This document shows, one piece after another, positions 2,624 to 14,019 of a stretch of DNA of 14,259 bases. Within the stretch, counting starts at the first letter, position 1. The number at the start of each line of letters is the position of its first letter. The translations under genes were made by a program, and so were the position numbers. Under the pieces are notes generated by a model. It was given only the letters and a program-made list of their open reading frames with translations, had not been told where the DNA came from and made no database searches. Source of the DNA: Tardiphaga sp. (GTDB lineage: Bacteria; Pseudomonadota; Alphaproteobacteria; Rhizobiales; Xanthobacteraceae); NCBI GenBank assembly GCA_028290765.1, contig JAQGJF010000964.1, forward strand, positions 1-14,259, read 5' to 3'.

Positions 2624-3874
2624 ATGGTCAAGCGGAGTATCGGCGCCGTCGCGCTAGGCTGCCTTATGTTGTCAGGTGGCGCGCAGGCTCAGGAAAAGAT
2701 CAAGGTCGGCGTCACGGCGACCCTCGAAGGCACCTACACGGTGCTCGGCGAAGACGGCATCCGCGGCATGCAGACCGCGTTGAAAAAATACGGCACCAAG
2801 GTCGGCGGCAAGGAACTGGACTTCATCATTGCCTCCACCGACGCCACGCCCGATTCCGCGGTGCGGGCAGCGCGCAAGCTGGTCGAACAGGACAAGGTCC
2901 AGTTGATGCTCTCGCCGCTGTCGGGCGACGAAGGCATCGCGGTCAAGAACTTCGCCAAGACCCATCCTGAAGTCACCTTCATCAATGCGGCCTCGGGCGC
3001 CCAGGAAACCACTTACGTCGATCCCGCTCCCAACTTCTACCGCTTCAACATGGACGGCGCGCAGTGGCAGGCCGGCCTTGGCAACTACATTTTCAAGACC
3101 AAGGGCTACAAGAAGATCGCCACCGTCGGCGAGGACTATTCCTTTGTCTACACGCAGGTTTTCGGCCTCGCGCTGGAATATTGCGCGGCCGGCGGCAAGA
3201 TCAGCAGCCGCCAATGGGTGCCGCTCGGCACCAAGGATTTCGCCTCGGTCATCGCGGCGATGCCGGATGACGTCGACGCGATCTATCTCGGCCTCGGCGG
3301 CGGCGACGCCGTCAACTTCCTCAACCAGTATCAGCAGGCGGGCGGCAAGGCGCATCTGATCGGGGGGTCGATCATGGTCGACCAGACCATCCTGTCGGCC
3401 AAGGGCAACGCCAAGAACGCGCTGATCGGCACCGTCGCGGCCAGCGGTCAGGGCGATACCTGGGACAATCCGAGCTGGCAGGCTTTCGTGAAGGCCTATC
3501 AGGACGCATTCCCGCCGGAGAAGCGCTTCCCGAGCCCGTCCCTGCTGGCAACCAATTATTACGGCGCCACGCAGGCTTTGATGGAGGCACTCACCAAGGT
3601 CAACGCCGACCTCAGCGACGGCCAGAAGAAACTCCGCGAAACCCTCAACACGCTGGTGATCCAGGCACCCAACGGCGAAATCAAGCTCGACAGCAATCGC
3701 CAGGCGATCGGCACGAATTTCGTGACCGAGGTCGTCGATGACGGCAAGGGCAATCTGTTCAGCAAGGTCGTCGCGGTGATACCGAACGTCAACCAGACCT
3801 TGGGCTACGATCCGGCGGTGTTCGCCAAGATCGGTCTGCCGAGTCGCACCGTGCCGGAATGTAAGAAGTACTGA
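2624..3874 (+). CDS. Periplasmic substrate-binding protein of a LivJ/HAAT-type ABC importer
   Basis: A 416-residue protein. The start ATG 2624 has GGGGAGG (2612-2618) 5 nt upstream and yields a standard signal peptide (MVKRSIGAVALGCLMLSGGAQA, likely cut after Ala22). The frame is open further upstream, but that part lacks a signal peptide and a ribosome site. The mature protein begins KIKVGVTATLEGTYTVLGED and continues with GIRGMQTALKKYG, the typical opening of Peripla_BP_6 (LivJ/LivK/AmiC-like) two-lobed binding proteins; later GYKKIATVGEDYSF and DAIYLGLGGGDAVNFLNQYQ mark the second lobe. Its length is usual for the family. It should deliver the ligand to the LivH/LivM permeases encoded 1.3 kb downstream, although the AraC gene lies between. 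The ligand is not readable: HAAT systems carry amino acids, amides, urea, aromatic acids and other compounds. Confidence 0.9.
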   Translation: MVKRSIGAVALGCLMLSGGAQAQEKIKVGVTATLEGTYTVLGEDGIRGMQTALKKYGTKVGGKELDFIIASTDATPDSAVRAARKLVEQDKVQLMLSPLSGDEGIAVKNFAKTHPEVTFINAASGAQETTYVDPAPNFYRFNMDGAQWQAGLGNYIFKTKGYKKIATVGEDYSFVYTQVFGLALEYCAAGGKISSRQWVPLGTKDFASVIAAMPDDVDAIYLGLGGGDAVNFLNQYQQAGGKAHLIGGSIMVDQTILSAKGNAKNALIGTVAASGQGDTWDNPSWQAFVKAYQDAFPPEKRFPSPSLLATNYYGATQALMEALTKVNADLSDGQKKLRETLNTLVIQAPNGEIKLDSNRQAIGTNFVTEVVDDGKGNLFSKVVAVIPNVNQTLGYDPAVFAKIGLPSRTVPECKKY

Positions 3875-3966: not shown

Positions 3967-4041
3967 TCATCGCGCGCTTGCAATCTCCAACCGGTGCGTC
4001 AAACTTGGCCGCAATAAATTAAGAATGCGGGGAGGATGGAG

Positions 4042-4866
4042 ATGAGCAGGGCGATCGCCGTGTTTCATGGCTGCTTCGGCCGCGCCTCGATTTATCAATT
4101 GAACCGACCCTTTAACGTCCACGCGCATCGCGAAGGACATCTGATTTTTCATCTCGGCGGTTCGGATGGAAGCATCACCGTCGGCGATACGTTCTGCCCG
4201 TTGACCACGTCTTCCTTTGTCGCCGTTTGTCCATGGGAGCCGCATAATTTCGTGCCCTGCGATCTGGACCAGGGATCGCTGTTCTTCGTTCTTTACGTCA
4301 ATCCCGAATGGTTCACGCCCGGCGCCGTCGGCGACGCGGCGCGGCTTAGCTTCGGCCGCCCCCTGACCTACCGGACCTCGACGATCGATCGCCAGATCCG
4401 GCGCACCGCGGCGATGGTCTATTCCGCGCATGGCCTCAGCGAATTGGATCGCGAGCTGCGCGGCCTGATCGACGCCTGCTACGCCGAGACCTGGCGGCGT
4501 CCCGGCGACCCGCCGGAACGTCGCGCCCTCGAAGGGGTGACGGATTTCCGCGTCCGCAAATCGATCCGCCTCATCCAGGAGGGACTCGGCGCCGACATCC
4601 AGCTCGACGACGTGGCCCGCGAATCCGGGCTGTCACGGCCGCATTTCTACAAGCTGTTCCGCAGCCAGACCGGCGTCACGCCGAACCTCTATCTCAACAC
4701 GCTGCTGATGGAACGAGCGATCGACGTGCTGGTGAAGACGGAAAACCCGGTGGCCGACATCGGCTTCAATCTCGGCTTTTCCTCGCAGAGCGCCTTTACG
4801 AGGTTCTTCGCGTCCAATGTCGGCATGGCGCCGACCGATTATCGCAGTGCGGCGCAGGTGTTGTGA
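4042..4866 (+). CDS. AraC-family transcriptional regulator with cupin-like sensor domain
   Basis: A 274-residue cytoplasmic DNA-binding protein. An in-frame ATG at 4036 directly abuts GGGGAGG (4029-4035), so the second ATG at 4042, six bases from that site, is the better start. Residues 1-95 form a cupin-like ligand-binding part with a VHAHREGH segment (His27, His29, His33) and further His/Pro residues at PWEPHNF. Residues 169-270 hold the two AraC helix-turn-helix units: IQLDDVARESGLSRPHFYKLFR (about 186-207) and VADIGFNLGFSSQSAFTRFF (about 238-256), ending in the familiar GMAPTDYR. It lies between the binding protein and the permease genes on the same strand, so it most likely senses the transported compound or a metabolite and controls this cluster. 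The target sites are not identified. Confidence 0.9.
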   Translation: MSRAIAVFHGCFGRASIYQLNRPFNVHAHREGHLIFHLGGSDGSITVGDTFCPLTTSSFVAVCPWEPHNFVPCDLDQGSLFFVLYVNPEWFTPGAVGDAARLSFGRPLTYRTSTIDRQIRRTAAMVYSAHGLSELDRELRGLIDACYAETWRRPGDPPERRALEGVTDFRVRKSIRLIQEGLGADIQLDDVARESGLSRPHFYKLFRSQTGVTPNLYLNTLLMERAIDVLVKTENPVADIGFNLGFSSQSAFTRFFASNVGMAPTDYRSAAQVL

Positions 4867-5099: not shown

Positions 5100-5169
5100 A
5101 AGCACGCGAAGGATGACAATCCGGCGCATTCGCGCCGCGCCGGCCTATGCGGTGAGCGCGGCCGGATGA
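5089..5169 (+). CDS. Possible 26-residue leader ORF, translationally coupled to livH
   Basis: The ATG at 5089 has an excellent ribosome site, GGGAGGG (5072-5078), 10 nt upstream, better than anything near the livH start. The frame encodes 26 residues (MAMGSTRRMTIRRIRAAPAY…) and ends in TGA at 5167-5169, which overlaps the livH ATG (5166-5168) as ATGA. This arrangement suggests that ribosomes finishing the short ORF restart on livH, which has only a weak site of its own. The peptide is basic with no recognisable domain and no run of a single regulatory amino acid, so classic attenuation is not indicated. The alternative is that it is not translated and livH starts by itself. Confidence 0.35.
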   Translation: MAMGSTRRMTIRRIRAAPAYAVSAAG

Positions 5170-6176
5170 ACCGCTTTATCGAGCGCCATCCGGTGTGGGC
5201 GCTGGTGACCGTGGTCGCCATCGTGGTGGCGCTGTGGCTGATCTTTGCGATCTGGCCGGAGGGCCTCGAGGACGCCATCGGCCGGAAAAAAGTCTTTCTC
5301 AACGCGCTGTTCAACGGCATCACGCTGGGCGGACTGTATTTCCTGGTCGCCAGCGGCTTCACGCTGATCTTCGGGTTGATGCGCAACGTCAATCTGGCGC
5401 ATGGGTCGATTTATCTGTTTGGCGGATACATCGGCTACAAGACCGTGGAATGGACCGGGTCCTGGGTGTTCAGTTTCATCGTCGCCTTCATCGCGGCGGC
5501 CTTGCTCGGCATCATTCTGCAGGTTCTGGTGTTCCGCCGCATGGAGGGCCAGGACCTGCGGCAGACGCTGGTCACCATCGGCATCTCGATTGTGCTCGCC
5601 GACCTCATGCTGTGGGGTTTTGGCGGCAATTATTACCAGATCCACACGCCCCAATGGCTGGTCGGCCCGATGCCGCTGCCGTTCGTGACCGCGGTCAAAT
5701 CATCGGGAGAGCCGGTCTATCTGACCTACCCGATCGTACGGCTCGTCATCCTGATGGCTTCCATCGTGATCGGCGTGGCGATGTGGCTGGTGCTCAACCG
5801 CACCCGCATCGGCATGATCGTCCGCGCCGGTGTCGACGACCGCGACATGCTCGCGGCGATGGGCGTACCGATCCAATTGGTGTTCGTGCTGGTGTTTGCC
5901 TTCGGCGCCGGCATGGCGGGAATGGCCGGCGTGGTCGGCGGAACCTTTCAATCGATCTCGCCGGGCGAAGACACACGGTTTCTGCTGGCGTCGCTGGTCG
6001 TGGTCATCGTCGGCGGCATGGGGTCGATACCGGGCGCTGCGCTCGGCGCATTGATCGTCGGTCTCGCCGAACAACTCGGCTCGGTCTACATCCCGACCTA
6101 TTCGATCGTGCTGACCTTCCTGATCATGGTGGTGGTCCTAGCGCTGCGGCCCCAGGGCCTCTTGGCGAGGCGCTGA
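5166..6176 (+). CDS. livH: LivH-type permease of a HAAT-family ABC importer
   Basis: A 336-residue inner-membrane protein. ATG 5166 is chosen because it starts just before the first hydrophobic helix (WALVTVVAIVVALWLIFAIW, about residues 11-30). The upstream open frame passes through non-coding repeat sequence. The family hallmarks are clear: LFNGITLGGLYFLVASGFTLIFGLMRNVNLAHG (about 48-80), LVTIGISIVLADLMLWGFGG, the coupling-loop region NRTRIGMIVRAGVDDRDMLAAMGV, and the end LRPQGLLARR. These are typical of LivH, which pairs with LivM to form the transmembrane channel. It has no strong Shine-Dalgarno of its own (see the leader ORF) and is followed by livM after 3 nt. The substrate is uncertain. 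Confidence 0.92.
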   Translation: MNRFIERHPVWALVTVVAIVVALWLIFAIWPEGLEDAIGRKKVFLNALFNGITLGGLYFLVASGFTLIFGLMRNVNLAHGSIYLFGGYIGYKTVEWTGSWVFSFIVAFIAAALLGIILQVLVFRRMEGQDLRQTLVTIGISIVLADLMLWGFGGNYYQIHTPQWLVGPMPLPFVTAVKSSGEPVYLTYPIVRLVILMASIVIGVAMWLVLNRTRIGMIVRAGVDDRDMLAAMGVPIQLVFVLVFAFGAGMAGMAGVVGGTFQSISPGEDTRFLLASLVVVIVGGMGSIPGAALGALIVGLAEQLGSVYIPTYSIVLTFLIMVVVLALRPQGLLARR

Positions 6177-6179
6177 ACG

Positions 6180-7274
6180 ATGGCCGTGATCGACACCCAT
6201 CGTTCACCCCCATCCACGGTTGCCGCGCCAGCCGAGGCGACCGGCTGGATCCAGCGCATCCATCCGGCGGCGGCGGTCGTCGCGGTGATCCTGCTGATCA
6301 TGCCGCTACTGGCCAACGACTTCATCCTGTTCCAGATCTTCTCCTGGTCGTACATCCTCGGCATGATCGCGCTGAGCCTGATGTTCCTCGCCGGCTATGG
6401 CGGCATGGTCAGCGTCGCGCAGATGACGATCGCGGGCTTCGCCGGCTACATGGTGGCGATCTTCGGCGTCAACGGCGTTGGCGCCGTCAGCCTCGGCTGG
6501 CCGTGGTGGCTCGCCGCGCCGATGGCCATTGCACTCGCCACGCTGTTCGGCACCGTCACCGGCGCGCTGGCGGTGCGCACCGAGGGCATCTACACCATCA
6601 TGATCACGCTGGCGATCGCGTCGGCGTTCTTCTATTTCGTCAACCAGAATTACGCGATCTTCAACGGCCATACCGGCATCAACAGCGTCGCGACGCCGAA
6701 ATTCTGGGACGTCGACTGGCGCGCGCCGGTGCCGTTTTATTATGTGACGCTGGGCTTCGCCGCGCTGTCGCTTTGGGCCGCCGGCTATCTCGCCCGCGCG
6801 CCGTTCGGGCTCGCGCTGCAGGGCGTGCGCGACAATCCGCGCCGCATGGCGGCGCTCGGCTTCAACGTCAACGCGCATCGCATCGCCGCCTATGTGTTCG
6901 CCTCCGTGGTCGCCTCGGTCGCCGGCATCCTCCTGGTGTGGAGCAACGGCCAGATTTCCCCCGGCACCGTCGGCGTCGATACCGCGATCGATATTCTGGT
7001 CATTGCCGTCGTCGGCGGCATATCACGGCCGATCGGGCCGTTCATCGGAGCCTTGATCTACGTGGTCCTGCGCACCTTCGCGCTGGATTTCCTGGTCGCG
7101 GTCGGGCTCGACGGCAACCGGTTTCGCCTGCTGGTCGGCTTCGGTTTTCTCGTCATCGTGTTCTGGTCGCCGGACGGCGTGACCGGGCTGTGGATGCGCT
7201 GGCGCAACCGTGGCCAGGGCTCGCAGAACGCACCGCGAGGAAGTGGCAGCCATGGAGGCGGCGGCCATGGATAG
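6180..7274 (+). CDS. livM: LivM-type permease of a HAAT-family ABC importer
   Basis: A 364-residue inner-membrane protein starting 3 nt after livH, with GAGG (6167-6170) inside the livH end at 9 nt spacing. Residues 1-25 are a hydrophilic extension. Hydrophobic helices begin at about residue 30 (AAAVVAVILLIMPLL). Family motifs are LAGYGGMVSVAQMTIAGFAGY (about 76-96), VRTEGIYTIMITLAIASAF, the coupling-loop segment APFGLALQGVRDNPRRMAALGFN, and GGISRPIGPFIGALIY near the C-terminus, followed by the typical FWSPDGVTGLW. The last residues form a short Gly/His tail (GSHGGGGHG) whose codons overlap the livG start by 8 nt. It should pair with the LivH product. Confidence 0.92.
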   Translation: MAVIDTHRSPPSTVAAPAEATGWIQRIHPAAAVVAVILLIMPLLANDFILFQIFSWSYILGMIALSLMFLAGYGGMVSVAQMTIAGFAGYMVAIFGVNGVGAVSLGWPWWLAAPMAIALATLFGTVTGALAVRTEGIYTIMITLAIASAFFYFVNQNYAIFNGHTGINSVATPKFWDVDWRAPVPFYYVTLGFAALSLWAAGYLARAPFGLALQGVRDNPRRMAALGFNVNAHRIAAYVFASVVASVAGILLVWSNGQISPGTVGVDTAIDILVIAVVGGISRPIGPFIGALIYVVLRTFALDFLVAVGLDGNRFRLLVGFGFLVIVFWSPDGVTGLWMRWRNRGQGSQNAPRGSGSHGGGGHG

Positions 7275-8049
7275 CGTCGCGCAACGCCTTTCCGCCGTCG
7301 GCGCCGGCAACGCGCTGGAACTGCGCGGCGTCACCCGCCTGTTCGGCGCGCTCGCCGCCCTGACCGACATTACCCTGACGGTGCGGCCGGGCGAGCGGCG
7401 CGCGGTGCTGGGCTCGAACGGCGCCGGCAAGACCACGCTGTTCAACTGCGTCACCGGCGATTTCCTCCCGACCTCCGGCACGATCCGGTTCTTCGGCGAG
7501 GACGTCACGGCGTTTCCGCCGCATGAGCGGATCCGGCGCGGGCTGCGCCGCACCTACCAGATCTCGGCGCTGTTTCCCGGCCTCTCGGTGATCGACAATG
7601 TCTATCTCGCCTGTCGCGGCGTTTCGCGCGGACGCTTCTCGTTGATCCGCCCCAACCAGAAGGACGCGCTGGTTCATGCCGCCGAGAATCTCGTGCAGGC
7701 CGTGCATCTGCGCGACATCAAGGACCAGCTGGTTTCCGAGCTGAGCTACGGCCAGCAGCGGCAGCTCGAGATCGCGCTCGCGCTGGCCGGAGCGCCGCGT
7801 CTTATTCTGTTTGACGAACCCGCCGCCGGCCTGTCGCCGACCGAACGCTCCGAACTGATCGACATCCTGTCGGCGTTGCCCGCGCATATCGGCTACATCA
7901 TCATCGAGCACGACATGGACGTCGCGTTGCGCGTGGTCGAAAGCGTGACGATGATGCACAACGGCCGCATCTTCAAGGAAGGCGCGCCGCAGGAGATCGA
8001 ATCCGATCCCGAGGTGCAGGAACTTTATCTGGGAGGCGGACATGGCTGA
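7267..8049 (+). CDS. livG: LivG-type ATPase of a HAAT-family ABC importer
   Basis: A 260-residue cytoplasmic ATPase subunit. ATG 7267 is preferred since GGAGG (7254-7258) lies 8 nt upstream; an in-frame ATG at 7252 and a GTG at 7210 would only add a low-complexity, Arg/Glu/Ala-rich stretch. All nucleotide-binding motifs are intact: Walker A GSNGAGKT (49-56), Q-loop Gln98, signature LSYGQQRQLEIA (159-170), Walker B LILFDEP (179-185) and the switch histidine in IIEHDMD (His215). LSYGQQ and FDEPAAGLSP are typical of LivG rather than LivF. The gene overlaps livM by 8 nt at its start and the livF fusion gene by 8 nt at its end. It should form the ATPase pair with the LivF domain of the next gene. 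Confidence 0.93.
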   Translation: MDSVAQRLSAVGAGNALELRGVTRLFGALAALTDITLTVRPGERRAVLGSNGAGKTTLFNCVTGDFLPTSGTIRFFGEDVTAFPPHERIRRGLRRTYQISALFPGLSVIDNVYLACRGVSRGRFSLIRPNQKDALVHAAENLVQAVHLRDIKDQLVSELSYGQQRQLEIALALAGAPRLILFDEPAAGLSPTERSELIDILSALPAHIGYIIIEHDMDVALRVVESVTMMHNGRIFKEGAPQEIESDPEVQELYLGGGHG

Positions 8050-10267
8050 GCCGCGCCGTCCCACTGCCAGTACCGCGATCCTGCAGGTCAGCGGCCTCAA
8101 CGTCTATTACGGGCATTCGCACGCGTTGCAGGGCGTCGACCTCACGCTGGAGCGCGGCGTGCTGTCCGTCGTCGGCCGCAACGGCATGGGCAAGACGACG
8201 CTGTGCAAGACCATCATGGGCCTAGTGCGCGCCTCCAGCGGTTCGATCCGCATGAACGGCCAGGATCTTCTGAGCCTGCAGCCGGCACAAATCGCCCGGC
8301 TCGGCGTCGGCTATGTCCCGCAGGGGCGCCGGCTGTGGCGCTCGCTCAGCGTCGACGAGCATCTGCGCCTGAGCACCGGTACGCGGCCCGGCGCCTGGAC
8401 TGTGGAGCGCATCTACGACACCTTTCCGCGGCTCGCCGAACGCAAGAACAATGGCGGCGGGCAACTTTCCGGCGGCGAGCAGCAGATGCTCGCCATCGCG
8501 CGCGCGCTGCTGACCAACCCGCAACTGCTGATCATGGACGAGCCGACCGAAGGCCTGGCGCCGGTCATCGTCAGCCAGGTCGAGAACATGCTGGTCCAGC
8601 TCGGCGAGGAAGGCGACATCGCCATCCTCGTCATCGAGCAGAACATCGGCGTCGCGACCTCGGTATCCGACAAGGTCGCGATCATGGTCAATGGGCGGAT
8701 CAACCGCATCATCGACTCGCAGCGCCTGGCCGCCGACCGCGAATTGCAGCAGCGCCTGCTCGGCGTCGGCCGCCATTCGGAAGCGGCACCAGCAGCCGAC
8801 CAGGAACCCACAGGCGCGCCACGCGAGGCGGCGAGCACGCCGGCGACCGTCGCGCATGCGGGGCCGGTGCGCATCTACATTTCCAATCCGATCCCGCCGA
8901 CGCGGTGGTCGCAACCCGTTCCTGCGGCGCGCATCGAGGCCGCCGCGCGTATCGTCTCAACCGGGTCCAGCCGGATCGACGAGGCGGCGCGGCGGCGCTC
9001 CCCGACGGTAACCAGCCTTTCAAGCGGACCGCCTGCGATTCTCGTGGTCGGCACGCTCGATACCAAGGGACCGGAGCTGCGTTTCATTCGCGACCTCGTC
9101 AAGGCGAGCGGCCTGCGAACGCGGCTGGTCGATGTGTCGACCAGCGGCAAGGCCGCGACCACCGACGTGACCGCGCAGGAAATCGCACTCAACCATCCGC
9201 GCGGCGGTTCCGGCGTCTTCAATGGCGAGCGCGGCGCCTCGGTTAGCGCCATGGCGGAGGCTTTCGAGGCCTGGATCAAACGACAGGGTGCCGTCGCCGG
9301 CATCATCAGCGCCGGCGGCTCCGGCGGCGCCTCGATCGTCGCACCGGGCATGCGCGCGTTGCCGATCGGCGTGCCCAAAGTGCTGGTCTCCTCGATCGCG
9401 TCGGGCGACGTCGGCCGCTATGTCGGGCCGAGCGACATCACGATGATGTATTCGGTCACCGACGTGCAGGGCATCAACTCGATCTCGCGCCAGGTGCTCG
9501 GCAATGGCGCGCAGGCCCTGATCGGCATGGTGAAGTCGCGGCTGGCCGAGGGCACGGGCCCGCCCGCCACGACCGACCTGCCCGCCGTGGGCCTGACGAT
9601 GTTCGGCGTCACCACGCCTTGCGTGCAGCAGATCTCGGCAGAGCTTTCGAAGGACTGGGAATGCCTGGTTTTCCACGCCACCGGCGTTGGCGGGCAGTCG
9701 ATGGAGAAGCTGGCCGATTCCGGCCTGCTGGCCGGCGCCATCGACATCACGACGACGGAGATTTGCGATCTGCTGATGGGCGGCGTGTTTCCCGCCACCG
9801 AGGATCGCTTCGGCGCGTTCATCCGCACCCGCCTGCCCTATCTCGGGTCGGTCGGGGCGCTCGACATGGTCAATTTCGGCCCGCGCGACACCGTGCCGCC
9901 AGCCTATTCCGGCCGCCGCCTGCAGGTCCATAATCCGCAGGTGACGCTGATGCGCACCACGCCGGCGGAAAATGACGCGATGGGCCGGTGGATCGGCGAG
10001 CGCCTCAACCGCATGGACGGGCCAGTGCGCTTCTTCCTGCCCGAGGGCGGCGTTTCCGCGCTCGATGCGCCGGGAAAACCTTTCCACGATCCCGAGGCCG
10101 ACGGCGCGCTGTTTCGCGCGCTCGACCAGACGGTGCGCCAGACCACCAACCGCCAGTTGATCCGCATCAAGCGCCACATCAACGATCCAGAATTCTCCTC
10201 CGCCGTCGTCGCCGCGTTTCGCGCGCTGCACGGGCGCGGCGGCATCCGCAAGCGCGCGGTGAGGTAG
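8042..10267 (+). CDS. Fusion: LivF-type ABC ATPase + Tm-1-like/UPF0261 domain
   Basis: One uninterrupted 741-residue frame; ATG 8042, GGGAGG (8031-8036) 5 nt upstream. Residues 1-244 are a complete LivF ATPase: Walker A GRNGMGKT (45-52), Q-loop Gln94, signature LSGGEQQM (142-149), Walker B LLIMDEP (162-168), and VIEQN (Gln200 at the switch position, normal for LivF). Residues about 245-331 are an Ala/Pro/Arg-rich linker. Residues about 332-741 match the full length of Tm-1-like ATP-binding (UPF0261) proteins: [11 protein letters not shown] (334-343), ISAGGSGG (422-429), [18 protein letters not shown] (449-466), [14 protein letters not shown] (544-557) and [14 protein letters not shown] (568-581). 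The plant member, tomato Tm-1, binds ATP and blocks tobamovirus replication; the bacterial role is unknown. A TIM-barrel partner gene follows after 2 nt. Fusion by sequencing error is unlikely, since codon usage is even throughout and both domains are complete. Confidence 0.9.
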
Positions 10268-10269
10268 CC

Positions 10270-11103
10270 ATGCCCGCAATTGAACGCTCAGCCCTCCTCG
10301 AAAAATTCCGCGCCATGGTCGCGCGTGGCGAGCCGATCGTCGGCGGTGGCGCCGGCACCGGGCTGTCGGCCAAATGCGAAGAAGACGGCGGCGCCGACCT
10401 GATCGTGATCTACAATTCCGGCCGCTATCGCATGGCCGGCCGCGGTTCGCTGGCGGGCCTCATGGCCTATGGCGACGCCAACGCCATCGTCGTCGACATG
10501 GCGCGCGAGGTGCTCCCGGTGGTGAAACGAACGCCGGTACTCGCGGGCGTCAACGGCACCGATCCATTCCGGCAGATGGACGTCTTTCTCGACCAGATCA
10601 AGGCGCTCGGATTTTCCGGCGTGCAGAACTTCCCGACCGTCGGCCTGATCGACGGCATGTTCCGCGCCAATCTCGAAGAGACCGGCATGTCCTATGCGCT
10701 GGAGGTCGAGATGATCGCCAAGGCGCACGCCAAAGACCTGCTGACGACGCCCTATGTCTTCAACGAGACCGAGGCCGAGGCGATGGCGCGGGCCGGCGCC
10801 GACATCGTGGTCTGCCATATGGGCCTGACCACCGGCGGCGCAATCGGGGCACAGACGGCGCTGAAACTCGCCGACTGCCCGGCGCTGATCGATTCCTGGG
10901 CCGGCGCGGCGCTGCGGGTGCGGCCGGATATTCTGGTGCTGGCGCATGGCGGACCGATTTCGGAGCCCGCGAACGCGGACTTCATCCTGAAACATACGAA
11001 GACCTGCCACGGATTCTATGGCGCGTCCTCGATGGAACGCCTGCCGGTCGAGCGCGCGCTGACCGACCAAGTCAAACGGTTCAAGGCCATCGGCCGAAGT
11101 TAG
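10270..11103 (+). CDS. TIM-barrel phosphoenolpyruvate hydrolase-like protein (Tm-1 C-terminal homologue)
   Basis: A 277-residue cytoplasmic protein starting 2 nt after the fusion gene, with GAGG (10261-10264) overlapping that gene's end. The opening [41 protein letters not shown] (20-60) and the segments [11 protein letters not shown] (90-100), [13 protein letters not shown] (117-129), [13 protein letters not shown] (181-193) and [10 protein letters not shown] (224-233) are typical of the PEP-hydrolase-like TIM-barrel family. Members are named after phosphonopyruvate/PEP hydrolases, but their real reaction is not established. In plants and fungi this barrel is the C-terminal part of Tm-1-like proteins, whose N-terminal part is encoded at the 3' end of the preceding gene. 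The two products therefore very probably act together as partner subunits. The distance of 2 nt suggests translational coupling. Confidence 0.87.
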
Positions 11104-11115
11104 AAGTTGAATTTT

Positions 11116-11140
11116 CAGGCCGCGCCCCCGGGGCGGCCTG
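11116..11140 (+). terminator. GC-rich hairpin between the barrel gene and the flotillin gene
   Basis: CAGGCCGC (11116-11123) pairs perfectly with GCGGCCTG (11133-11140) around a 9-nt C/G loop. It begins 12 nt after the barrel gene's stop, has no U-run after it, and is followed within 3 nt by the flotillin ribosome site. It may attenuate or process the transcript rather than terminate it, giving the flotillin a different level from the upstream genes. Confidence 0.4.
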
Positions 11141-11157
11141 TCAGGGAGGGTACGAAG

Positions 11158-14019
11158 ATGTCGGGTCTTTTGATTGGCAGCCTGATCCTGTGGCTGATCA
11201 TCGCGGTCATCGTCATCGTGGTGTTCGTCTATGTCGTGAACTGGCTCTACCATCGCTCCTCCAAGGAGGTCGCGTTCGTCCGCACCGGCTTCCTCGGCGA
11301 GCGGGTCGTCATCGACGGCGGCGCCTTCGTGCTGCCGTTCATTCACGACTTCACCCCGGTCAACATGAATGTGCTGCCGATGGGGATCGTGCGCGAAAAG
11401 GGCGACGCCCTGATCACGCGCGACCGCATGCGCATCGACATCGAGGCCGATTTCTACGTCCGGGTGCAGGCGACGCGCGAAGCGGTCTCGATCGCCGCGG
11501 CAACGCTGGGCCGGCGCACGCTCGAGCCCGAGCGGCTGCACACGCTGCTGTCCGGCAAATTTGTCTCCTCGCTGCGCTCGGTCGCCTCGGAAATGACCAT
11601 GGAGCAGATGCACGAACAGCGCGGCGAATATGTCTCGCGGGTCAAGGCCGCCGCCGCCGAGGCGCTGGCGCAAAATGGCCTCGAACTGGAATCGGTCGCG
11701 ATCACCGATCTGGACCAGACCGATCTCGAATTCTTCAATCCTTCCAACCGCTTCGATGCGGAAGGCTTGACCAAGCTGATGGAAGACATCGAAGCCCGGC
11801 GCAAATTGCGCAACGACATCGAACAGGATTCGATGATCCGGATCCGCACCCGCAACCTCGAGGCCGAGCGCCAGGCGCTCGACATCGAGCGCGACAGCGA
11901 GACCGCGCGGCTCGAACAGCAGCGCGACATCGAGGTGCTGCGCGCCGTGCAGCGCACCGAAGTGGCGCGGGAGCGCGCCTTGCGCGAGACCGAGGCCGAG
12001 CAGGCGCAGATTTCCGCCCGCGAGACCATCGAGAAAGCGCGCATCTCCAACGAACAGGCGATCAGCGAAGCCCGGATCGCGTCGGAGCGGGAAATCCGCC
12101 AGAAGGAGATCGAACGCACCCGCGCGGTCGAGGAAGTCGAGATTTCCGCCCGCGAGGGCATCGAGAAGGCCCGGATCGCCAACCAGCGATCGGTCGATAC
12201 CACCCGGATCGCCTCCGAGCGCGAGGTGCGCCAGAAGGAAATCGAGCGCACCCGCACCATCGAGGAAGCCGAAATACAGGCGCGTGAATACGTCGAAAAA
12301 GCCCGCATCCTGCAGGAGCGCGCGGTTACCGAATCGCGCATCGTCAACGAGGAAGAAACCCGCCGGCGCGAGATCGAACGCACCCGGGCGGTCGACGAAG
12401 CCGAAATCGCCGCCCGTGAGGCGACCGAGAAACTGCGCATCGTGCAGATGACCTCGATCAATGCCGAACGCATCGCCTCGGAAGAACGCACCCGCTCGCT
12501 GGAAATTGCCCGGACGCAAGCAATCGAAGAGGCCGAGATCGCCGCGCAGCAGGCCACCGAGGCAGCGAAGATCGCGCGCGAACAACTGCTCGCCGCCGAA
12601 CGCATTGCGGCCGAACAGGAAACCCGAACGCTCGAAATCACCCGCAACGAAATGCTCGACAAGGCCGAGGTCTCCTCGCGCCACCTCGTCGCCTCCGCCC
12701 GCATCGCCTCGGAGGAGGAAATCCGCAGCCTCGAGATCGCCCGCAACCGCAACATCGAAGCCGCGGAGATCAGCGCGCGCGAGGCCATCGAGGCCGCCAA
12801 GATCGCCCAGGAGAAGATGGTCGCCGCCGAGCGCATCCTGGCCGATCGGGAGACCCGCGGGCTGGAGATCGCCCGCTCCGAAATGCTCGACGCCGCCGAG
12901 CTGAAGCGCCGCGACGCCATCGAGCGCCAGCGCATCGGCGTCGAACTGGCGCTGGAGGCCGACCGCATCGCGTCCGCCAGAACGCGTGAAGTGCTGAACA
13001 TCGAGCAGAAGAAGGTGGTCGAACTCGCCGACGAGGACCGCGTTATCGCGTTGTCTTCCAAGAAATCGGAACGCATCGGCGCCGACCGCCAGGTGCGCCA
13101 GGCCGAGATCCTCGCCAAGCAGCAGGTCGAGAAGAGCGACGTCGAACGCGAGCAGGCCCTGGAAGCCGCGCGGCTGGAGCGGCGGCGCGCCATCGAGCAG
13201 TTGGAGATCGCCCGGGTCCAGGCGCTGCAGGAAGCTGAAATCGCTTCGCGCGAGGAGGTCGAGCGGGTTCGCATTGCCTCCGATCGCGGCCTCGACGAAG
13301 CCCGGGTCGGGCGCGAACGGGATCTGCGCAAGCTGGAAGTCGACCGCGAGAAGGTGGTCGAGACCGCCCTGATGGAAAAGGCGATCGCGCTGTACCAGAA
13401 ATCGCTGGAACATTCGGCCGCACAGGCGGAGGCGGAAAACGCCAAGGCGCTCGCCTCCGAAGCCCAGGAAAAGGCCATTACCGTGCGCGACAGCGAGATC
13501 GCGCGGCGCCGCAAGACCATCGAGGTTCTGATCGCCGAAAAGGAAGCCGAGGAAACCCGCATCGGGGCGGAAGCCTCGCGGATCCGCTCCGCCGTCGAAG
13601 CCGAAGCGCAGCGGCTCATCAACGAGGCCGAGAACGTGCTCACCGACAGCGCGCGCCAATCGCTGTTCAAGCGCAAGCTGCTCGAGCACATCGAAGGCAT
13701 CGTCCGCGAGAGCGTCAAGCCGATGGAGAAGATCGAAGGCATCCGCATCCTGCATGTCGACGGGCTGAACGGCTCAGGCTCGGGCGGCGGCGGCCGCAAC
13801 GCCACCGACGAGGTGATCGATTCGGCGCTGCGTTACCGCGTGCAGGCCCCGCTAATCGACTCGATCCTCGCGGACATCGGCGTCGAGGGCGGCAGCCTGG
13901 CCAAAATGCCCGGCCTGATGCGCGAGGCGCGCGACATGCAGGGCATCCGTGAATCGACAACGCGGAAGGGGCGGCGAAGGCAAGCCGGCCGCGCCGGCGC
14001 AGAGTCCGCCCGCCGGTGA
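11158..14019 (+). CDS. Flotillin-family SPFH membrane protein with giant hendecad coiled coil
   Basis: A 953-residue protein as read; ATG 11158 has GGGAGGG (11144-11150) 7 nt upstream. Residues 4-30 are one membrane helix (LLIGSLILWLIIAVIVIVVF). Residues about 33-200 are an SPFH/band-7 domain with the flotillin-like LGERVVIDGGAFVLPFIHDF and MRIDIEADFYVRV. From residue 196 to 854 there is no proline: a long charged helix with about 45 eleven-residue repeats (251-759). Residues about 760-880 are a further helix and a folded end (LLEHIEGIVRESVKPMEKIEGIRIL), then a Gly/Ser linker (GSGSGGGG) and a conserved-looking end. E. coli YqiK and eukaryotic flotillins are shorter (about 430-550 residues). 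Flotillins oligomerise into membrane cages and microdomains. The extreme C-terminus is probably frameshifted (GGGG at 13968-13971). It lies 54 nt after the barrel gene and may share its transcript. Confidence 0.9.
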   Translation: MSGLLIGSLILWLIIAVIVIVVFVYVVNWLYHRSSKEVAFVRTGFLGERVVIDGGAFVLPFIHDFTPVNMNVLPMGIVREKGDALITRDRMRIDIEADFYVRVQATREAVSIAAATLGRRTLEPERLHTLLSGKFVSSLRSVASEMTMEQMHEQRGEYVSRVKAAAAEALAQNGLELESVAITDLDQTDLEFFNPSNRFDAEGLTKLMEDIEARRKLRNDIEQDSMIRIRTRNLEAERQALDIERDSETARLEQQRDIEVLRAVQRTEVARERALRETEAEQAQISARETIEKARISNEQAISEARIASEREIRQKEIERTRAVEEVEISAREGIEKARIANQRSVDTTRIASEREVRQKEIERTRTIEEAEIQAREYVEKARILQERAVTESRIVNEEETRRREIERTRAVDEAEIAAREATEKLRIVQMTSINAERIASEERTRSLEIARTQAIEEAEIAAQQATEAAKIAREQLLAAERIAAEQETRTLEITRNEMLDKAEVSSRHLVASARIASEEEIRSLEIARNRNIEAAEISAREAIEAAKIAQEKMVAAERILADRETRGLEIARSEMLDAAELKRRDAIERQRIGVELALEADRIASARTREVLNIEQKKVVELADEDRVIALSSKKSERIGADRQVRQAEILAKQQVEKSDVEREQALEAARLERRRAIEQLEIARVQALQEAEIASREEVERVRIASDRGLDEARVGRERDLRKLEVDREKVVETALMEKAIALYQKSLEHSAAQAEAENAKALASEAQEKAITVRDSEIARRRKTIEVLIAEKEAEETRIGAEASRIRSAVEAEAQRLINEAENVLTDSARQSLFKRKLLEHIEGIVRESVKPMEKIEGIRILHVDGLNGSGSGGGGRNATDEVIDSALRYRVQAPLIDSILADIGVEGGSLAKMPGLMREARDMQGIRESTTRKGRRRQAGRAGAESARR
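11908..13434 (+). repeat. Hendecad (11-residue) repeat region, with 132-nt tandem units at 12007-12897
   Basis: Residues 251-759 of the flotillin fit an 11-residue pattern of the type [RKE]-I-x6-h-x3 (for example EISAREGIEKA, RIASEREVRQK, EIERTRTIEEA). I count 34 units in register (251-624), a 14-residue segment, then 11 more units (639-759). Between residues 284 and 580 a higher-order unit of four hendecads (44 residues, 132 nt) is tandemly repeated: five full units, one of 33 residues, then one full unit. DNA similarity between neighbouring units (such as ATTTCCGCCCGCGAG at 12010 and 12142) shows origin by duplication. Confidence 0.85.

Follow-up and report, generated by a model that had tools for sequence, protein, structure and literature searches.

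ABC importers of the LivFGHMJ and UrtABCDE type are encoded by operons uniting a binding protein, two permeases and two ATPases. The importer ATPases MalK, ModC and MetN carry regulatory C-terminal domains, and group translocation by the PTS couples import with phosphorylation. To our knowledge, the union of transport and a first catabolic step in one protein is known from PTS and not from ABC importers. The operon described here is located on a window of 14,259 nucleotides (the whole stretch of DNA analyzed; Tardiphaga sp., contig JAQGJF010000964.1) and agrees with the LivFGHMJ and UrtABCDE systems in its set of components as well as in the LivF motifs. Unlike in these systems, its LivF has an extension of 500 residues comprising a UPF0261 (Tm-1-like) domain, and it reaches neither the LivF nor the UrtE equivalog cut-off of NCBIfam.

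The solved UPF0261 proteins, i.e., tomato Tm-1 (PDB 3wrw) and Saro_1862 of Novosphingobium aromaticivorans (PDB 9mpy), have no ABC ATPase attached, and plant UPF0261 is described as being fused to a barrel enzyme instead of an ABC ATPase (PMC5028733). Provision of a transporter-type membrane protein with a dedicated flotillin gene, as in the present operon, is described for flotillin-associated rhodopsin clusters, which differ in harbouring a rhodopsin and, in the account consulted, no fused enzyme (PMC10308929). Open-licence literature on UPF0261, the barrel and flotillin in connection with importers or operons yielded no description of a LivF-UPF0261 fusion; database entries name this architecture, e.g., "ABC transporter permease". 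The operon provides context to the Tm-1 family, which is known from virus resistance of tomato and the bacterial role of which is only now emerging.

The fusion protein and its occurrence

The fusion gene (8042..10267, + strand) forms a single uninterrupted frame with an ATG start and no internal stop in the ORF listing. Its 741 aa product consists of (i) a LivF-type ATPase half (residues 1–242; 8042..8767), (ii) a linker (residues 243–330; 8768..9031), and (iii) the UPF0261 N and C domains (residues 331–741; 9032..10264). Three Pfam domains were detected above their cut-offs (ABC_tran, 29–169; UPF0261 N-domain, 332–500; UPF0261_C, 514–729), bearing out the initial annotation, which had proposed LivF and a complete Tm-1-like domain in one frame. 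The N and C domains score 195.4 and 297.6 bits, respectively, and the UPF0261 half exceeds the NF002673 equivalog with 590 bits (cut-off 520 bits).

The LivF half contains Walker A (residues 45–52, GRNGMGKT), signature (142, LSGGE) and Walker B (162–168, LLIMDEP) motifs. Its H-loop position is occupied by Gln and not by His (196, LVIEQN); the earlier wording of a complete LivF with all nucleotide-binding motifs holds for the former three and is slightly too strong for the latter. E199 and Q200 are invariant across 30 diverse fusions, and since the split LivF relatives introduced below also read EQ at the H-loop, this represents a trait of this LivF kind. Classification as LivF-type importer ATPase is based on Walker A, signature, Walker B and the EQN shared with split relatives, and on the adjacent genes for LivG, LivH, LivM and a binding protein. 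The E. coli LivF equivalog NF008626 is not reached (162.7 bits vs. a curated score of 441), and the LivF half also remains below the cut-off of the UrtE equivalog.

Seven split relatives (L146–L149, L084, L176 and L179; L147–L149 being near-copies) have a LivF that stops near the point where the linker starts and a UPF0261 protein that begins directly, i.e., they possess no linker. Comparison of 49 fused with only 4 split rows yielded R222, R288 and W289 as the sole fusion-specific residues. Following the Q-loop, the fused LivF (8327–8338 in the window, and its homologues) reads RRLW vs. RRVF, RRMF and RRIF in split loci L146, L147 and L084, respectively, which to judge from the sequences may mark a different permease contact.

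A sequencing or frame artefact as source of the fusion is ruled out by 136 distinct fused ORFs. The frame is continuous across the linker, where the initial annotation had asked for a possible stop or frame change, and differences per codon position (0.232/0.194/0.481; 5062 codon comparisons from 60 random pairs of loci L001–L080) behave as in coding DNA, indicating that the linker is translated. Some in-frame ATG, GTG or TTG occurs within the last 45 codons before UPF0261 in 126 of the 136 fused ORFs, but an in-frame ATG or GTG with a Shine-Dalgarno-like string in only 12. Therefore, no conserved restart is apparent in these 45 codons, as judged from the sequences of the 136 ORFs; an internal start had been considered initially as a source of separate LivF and Tm-1-like proteins.

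The fusion is conserved in further genomes. The best 120 of 7998 protein matches all share the three Pfam domains and a length of 734–745 aa, and the best 80 of 384 loci in named genomes (L001–L080) are all fused, 78 of them being titled Bradyrhizobium. Full-length, stop-free matches in one frame were obtained in 14 of 398 genomes of a phylum sample (plus a partial one in G322), 49 of 297 genomes of an order sample (plus 4 partial ones) and 9 of 240 genomes of another class sample (with separate pieces on two contigs in G664); these samples overlap, include their centre genome, are centred on fusion-bearing genomes and all lie within the fusion's own phylum. Plasmids of Shinella, Yoonia and Variovorax also encode the fusion, which occurs in Alpha- and Betaproteobacteria. 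The 136 distinct fused ORFs (80 from L001–L080 and 56 from elsewhere) are not independent, and most counts given here lean on closely related Bradyrhizobium loci. They were selected by a UPF0261 BLAST score >150, so that further decayed fusions may have gone undetected; one fusion below this score (L153) was added by hand, raising the set to 137.

Operon context and flotillin

The conserved gene order comprises genes for a periplasmic substrate-binding protein (2624..3874; PF13458), an AraC-family regulator (4036..4866; profile match), LivH- and LivM-type permeases (5166..6176 and 6180..7274; both PF02653), a LivG-type ATPase (7252..8049; profile match), the fusion, a PEP_hydrolase barrel, a flotillin and an SRPBCC protein, all on the + strand. 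Where the upstream stretch measured at least 7 kb (89 fused loci, 78 of which come from L001–L080), LivG, LivM and LivH always adjoin the fusion, accompanied by the binding protein in 87 and AraC in 83. Placement of the additional domain on a Liv-type importer, as proposed initially, is thus well founded.

The gene directly following that of the UPF0261 half (10270..11103) encodes a PEP_hydrolase (TBST) TIM-barrel enzyme (PF09370, 435.9 bits; PDB 2p10, E 1.1e-122), completing a UPF0261-TBST pair. The previously noted adjoining barrel partner is a general feature of the fusion, being located downstream in 94 of 100 fused loci with room on the basis of ORFs and in 97 after tblastn. The latter placed the barrel of L081, L157 and L160, apparently absent at the ORF level, inside frame-merged ORFs, and likewise detected a barrel in all three split loci L147–L149; none was found by tblastn at the fused loci L150, L161, L164 and L153. 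The split loci L146 (14127–16103) and L147–L149 (near 14–16 kb) also contain a large second ORF of 643–670 codons with a divergent PEP_hydrolase match (30–34 % identity), and three of these four a short partial barrel match.

The flotillin (11158..14019, + strand; 953 aa) displays an SPFH domain, a long repeat region and a flotillin C domain (Band_7 and Flot matches). About 50 successive 11-residue repeats extend over about residues 229–833, and shorter flotillin relatives yield matches that skip parts of this region. We know of no longer bacterial flotillin. Sequence comparison with the PDB retrieved four matches; their entries are those of a Rab family protein or an Ankyrin/TPR protein, with E values between 0.00016 and 0.00088. 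Among loci with at least 4.5 kb downstream, flotillin is present in 91 of 92 fused loci (75/75 of L001–L080 and 16/17 of the others) and in none of nine unfused ones (five split, four standalone). It is the most fusion-specific neighbour, and one that the initial annotation did not consider. The fusion provides a bacterial flotillin with a defined candidate cargo. Genome G629 contains fusion, barrel and full linker island, but at E 1e-20 it yielded no match to flotillin; this genome may be incomplete, or flotillin may not be strictly required. Related flotillins (50–55 % identity, 578–610 aa) are encoded in G472, G481 and G405 (L211–L213), which do not belong to the fusion-matching genomes of the order sample.

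The SRPBCC gene (PF10604; 14066..14259, + strand) is cut by the window end, its first 64 residues scoring 48.8 bits. Among 20 of 35 ORFs downstream of flotillin in 11 sampled loci, PF10604 was detected in seven loci and a molybdenum hydroxylase subunit in four; L001, L158 and L161 yielded neither of the two in this set. Annotations of Yoonia and Variovorax also include SRPBCC genes, in case of Yoonia additionally molybdopterin, MoxR and VWA genes.

The Arg-Trp island of the linker

The initial annotation had described the linker as Ala/Pro/Arg-rich and about 85 residues long. Its length is confirmed (88 residues), but it is no plain tether, since it contains a conserved island (about residues 276–305; 8867..8956, + strand) with an invariant Arg288-Trp289. 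Across 121 close sequences, 20-residue blocks of the linker average 63–77 % majority residue, except for residues 281–300 with 92 %, and no column between 242 and 337 other than R288 and W289 is invariant across 30 diverse fusions. The pattern S[NR]PxxPxRW was found in 111 and PxRW in 132 of the 136 distinct fusions. Allowing for [SA]NP, the long form is present in 120 and the RW core in the remaining 16, so that RW occurs in all 136. By contrast, RW is absent from the last 40 residues of LivF in all seven split relatives. On the UPF0261 tree, one clade of 36 rows separates the two forms: its fused rows all possess the long form, and the 16 fused rows that fall outside it are the 16 core-only fusions.

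AlphaFold2 prediction of the single chain (pTM 0.62) assigns a pLDDT <50 to residues 244–272 and 308–325. Block means between residues 271 and 310 amount to 61–82 in the whole protein, flanked by stretches below 50, and to 56–82 upon removal of UPF0261; the respective means of residues 281–290 and 291–300 are 70 and 82 with, and 74 and 82 without UPF0261. The island is therefore independent of UPF0261 in the prediction, and its modelled pLDDT could reflect local folding only. This short motif is amenable to mutation.

Flotillins beside the core-only fusions measure 539–761 aa where judged complete (9 of 16, the other 7 lying in short stretches). Those beside long-form fusions exceed 850 aa in 83 of 120 cases; in the remaining 37 loci, flotillin was not found (4), is cut at contig ends (5) or lies in short stretches (28). 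Confinement of long island and longer flotillin to one clade indicates a single correlated change at best. Linker and flotillin lengths are weakly and negatively correlated (rho -0.24, p 0.02, n = 93), some flotillin ORFs being cut by contig ends.

Proposed function of UPF0261 and possible roles of the fusion

The UPF0261 half matches tomato Tm-1 and 9mpy in sequence and fold. The latter, a UPF0261 domain protein with bound acetovanillone, a lignin-derived phenol, is its nearest solved bacterial relative (32–34 % identity, rmsd 7.1, motif blocks in common). Acetovanillone catabolism in the same organism is reported to begin with the kinase MarK (Hall et al. 2025, J Biol Chem 301:110606, cited in PMC13101465) and to continue with a carboxylase and a phosphatase (PMC13101465). 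We infer that MarK and Saro_1862 are one protein and that UPF0261 proteins of this type phosphorylate small molecules; resemblance of the UPF0261 half to a MarK-type kinase is confined to fold and motifs of 9mpy. The statement that UPF0261 has no known function in bacteria is out of date, given the acetovanillone-binding 9mpy and, as reported in the source consulted, MarK in the same organism. If MarK is Saro_1862, the present protein may share with it a kinase type that opens acetovanillone catabolism, but would differ in the subsequent enzymes and in its attachment to a transporter, which the portion of PMC13101465 consulted does not mention for MarK.

UPF0261 and barrel genes are reported to co-evolve, with UPF0261 present in 491 of 504 barrel-bearing bacterial genomes (97.4 %; PMC5028733). 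The present data set agrees with such a dependence. HATGxGG of the UPF0261 half is conserved in 135 of 137 fusions, the exceptions being those of G641 (L150) and G322 (L153), i.e., the two genomes with no PF09370 match anywhere (8 genomes searched whole, 6 positive; in the other fused genomes barrel status was judged by locus, or not scored where the available stretch was short). In case of G615 and G617, which lack a barrel at the fusion but have one elsewhere beside a second UPF0261 match, HATGxGG is retained. Other motifs vary without loss of the barrel: of the 137 fusions, 12 lack HNPQ and 10 lack TTTE, and more lack GGSGG and SALDAPG. Loss of HATGxGG in the two genomes without a PF09370 match supports UPF0261 and barrel functioning as one enzymatic unit. 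G641 and G322 nevertheless retain ATPase, RW and flotillin although barrel and UPF0261 motifs are lost, meaning that in these two genomes the fused domain either serves some purpose other than catalysis or is caught in recent or ongoing decay. These two genomes with a decaying enzyme half and a missing barrel represent a natural experiment.

Based on the sequences, we tentatively favour an importer motor carrying a kinase-type enzyme that would act on the substrate at the membrane; the barrel would act next, and flotillin would serve as organiser. LivF would pair with LivG under LivH/LivM, resulting in one UPF0261 domain per importer, the position of which would be fixed by the Arg-Trp island folding locally or back onto ATPase or importer rather than onto UPF0261. 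Located at the pore exit, UPF0261 would serve as ATP-dependent, MarK-type small-molecule kinase, phosphorylating a hydroxyl group of the aromatic-type substrate, either as it enters or once it has just been oxidised, and thereby trapping it. The phosphorylated product would be received by the PEP_hydrolase barrel, and flotillin would gather or enclose the complexes along with the products of the genes that follow in several loci (SRPBCC protein, molybdenum hydroxylase). Import and first chemical processing may thus be physically joined. UPF0261 as a phenol-binding family is suggested by acetovanillone in 9mpy, the common motif blocks and MarK in the same organism, an enzymatic unit with the barrel by the UPF0261-barrel dependence, and a scaffold role of flotillin by its restriction to fused loci. 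As regards the kinase part, the modest similarity to 9mpy (32–34 % identity, rmsd 7.1) and the reported use of carboxylase and phosphatase rather than this barrel in the MarK pathway speak against such an assignment. Retention of the fusion in G641 and G322 after motif loss argues against a purely catalytic role. Of the three functions proposed in the initial annotation, i.e., gating of transport, processing of the substrate and reporting to the barrel partner, processing fits best and gating and reporting less well, all three remaining proposals. One may speculate further on an ATP-driven group translocation, in which the motor-borne kinase would phosphorylate each imported molecule at the pore exit and pass it to the barrel in a flotillin-bounded compartment with the molybdenum hydroxylase; this extended version is doubtful. 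It would resemble the PTS in coupling import to phosphorylation, but rely on an ABC motor plus a distinct domain that uses ATP, in place of a PEP phosphorelay. Should the UPF0261 half be a kinase, transport and first catabolic step would be joined in one protein.

Persistence of the fusion in G641 and G322 beyond loss of motifs and barrel, at odds with a purely catalytic role, would suit a regulatory domain, with UPF0261 inhibiting or licensing the ATPase upon binding of a cytoplasmic metabolite, and C-terminal placement on an importer ATPase recalls MalK, ModC and MetN. However, the conservation of HATGxGG and the tight barrel linkage look enzymatic, and the decayed domains probably lost ligand binding as well, rendering regulation rather unlikely as the main role. 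Neutral joining of adjacent livF and UPF0261 genes, providing co-expression and stoichiometry via a mere tether and without new mechanism, is also unlikely. It accords with the side-by-side split genes of L084 and L146–L149 and with the UPF0261 tree, on which fused rows require three changes but the AU test does not reject a single fused clade (p 0.361; 0.311 upon omission of two long branches). The invariance of Arg288-Trp289 within an otherwise free linker, the flotillin linkage tracking the fusion and the spread over Alpha- and Betaproteobacteria speak against it. The flotillin linkage (91 of 92 fused vs. none of nine unfused loci) could also mean that the island docks on flotillin and that the main task of the fused half is to bring the importer into a flotillin microdomain, which would agree with the joint retention of island, fusion and flotillin in G641 and G322 despite the loss of barrel and motifs, and with the longer flotillins accompanying the long island in one clade. 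But this pairing traces to a single clade and hence one event at best, and the full island of G629 in the apparent absence of flotillin (possibly due to genome incompleteness) weakens flotillin as sole island partner; such an adapter role is therefore quite improbable.

Two further observations concern the remainder of the window. Long alternative-frame ORFs over real genes (5195–7363, + strand, 722 codons; 10288–13755, - strand, 1155 codons) are expected shadows in GC-rich DNA. Upstream of the importer operon, two genes (681–1984) match TIGR04029 (CMD-domain, Avi_7170) and TIGR04030 (alkylhydroperoxidase, Avi_7169), and this gene pair probably represents a separate unit.
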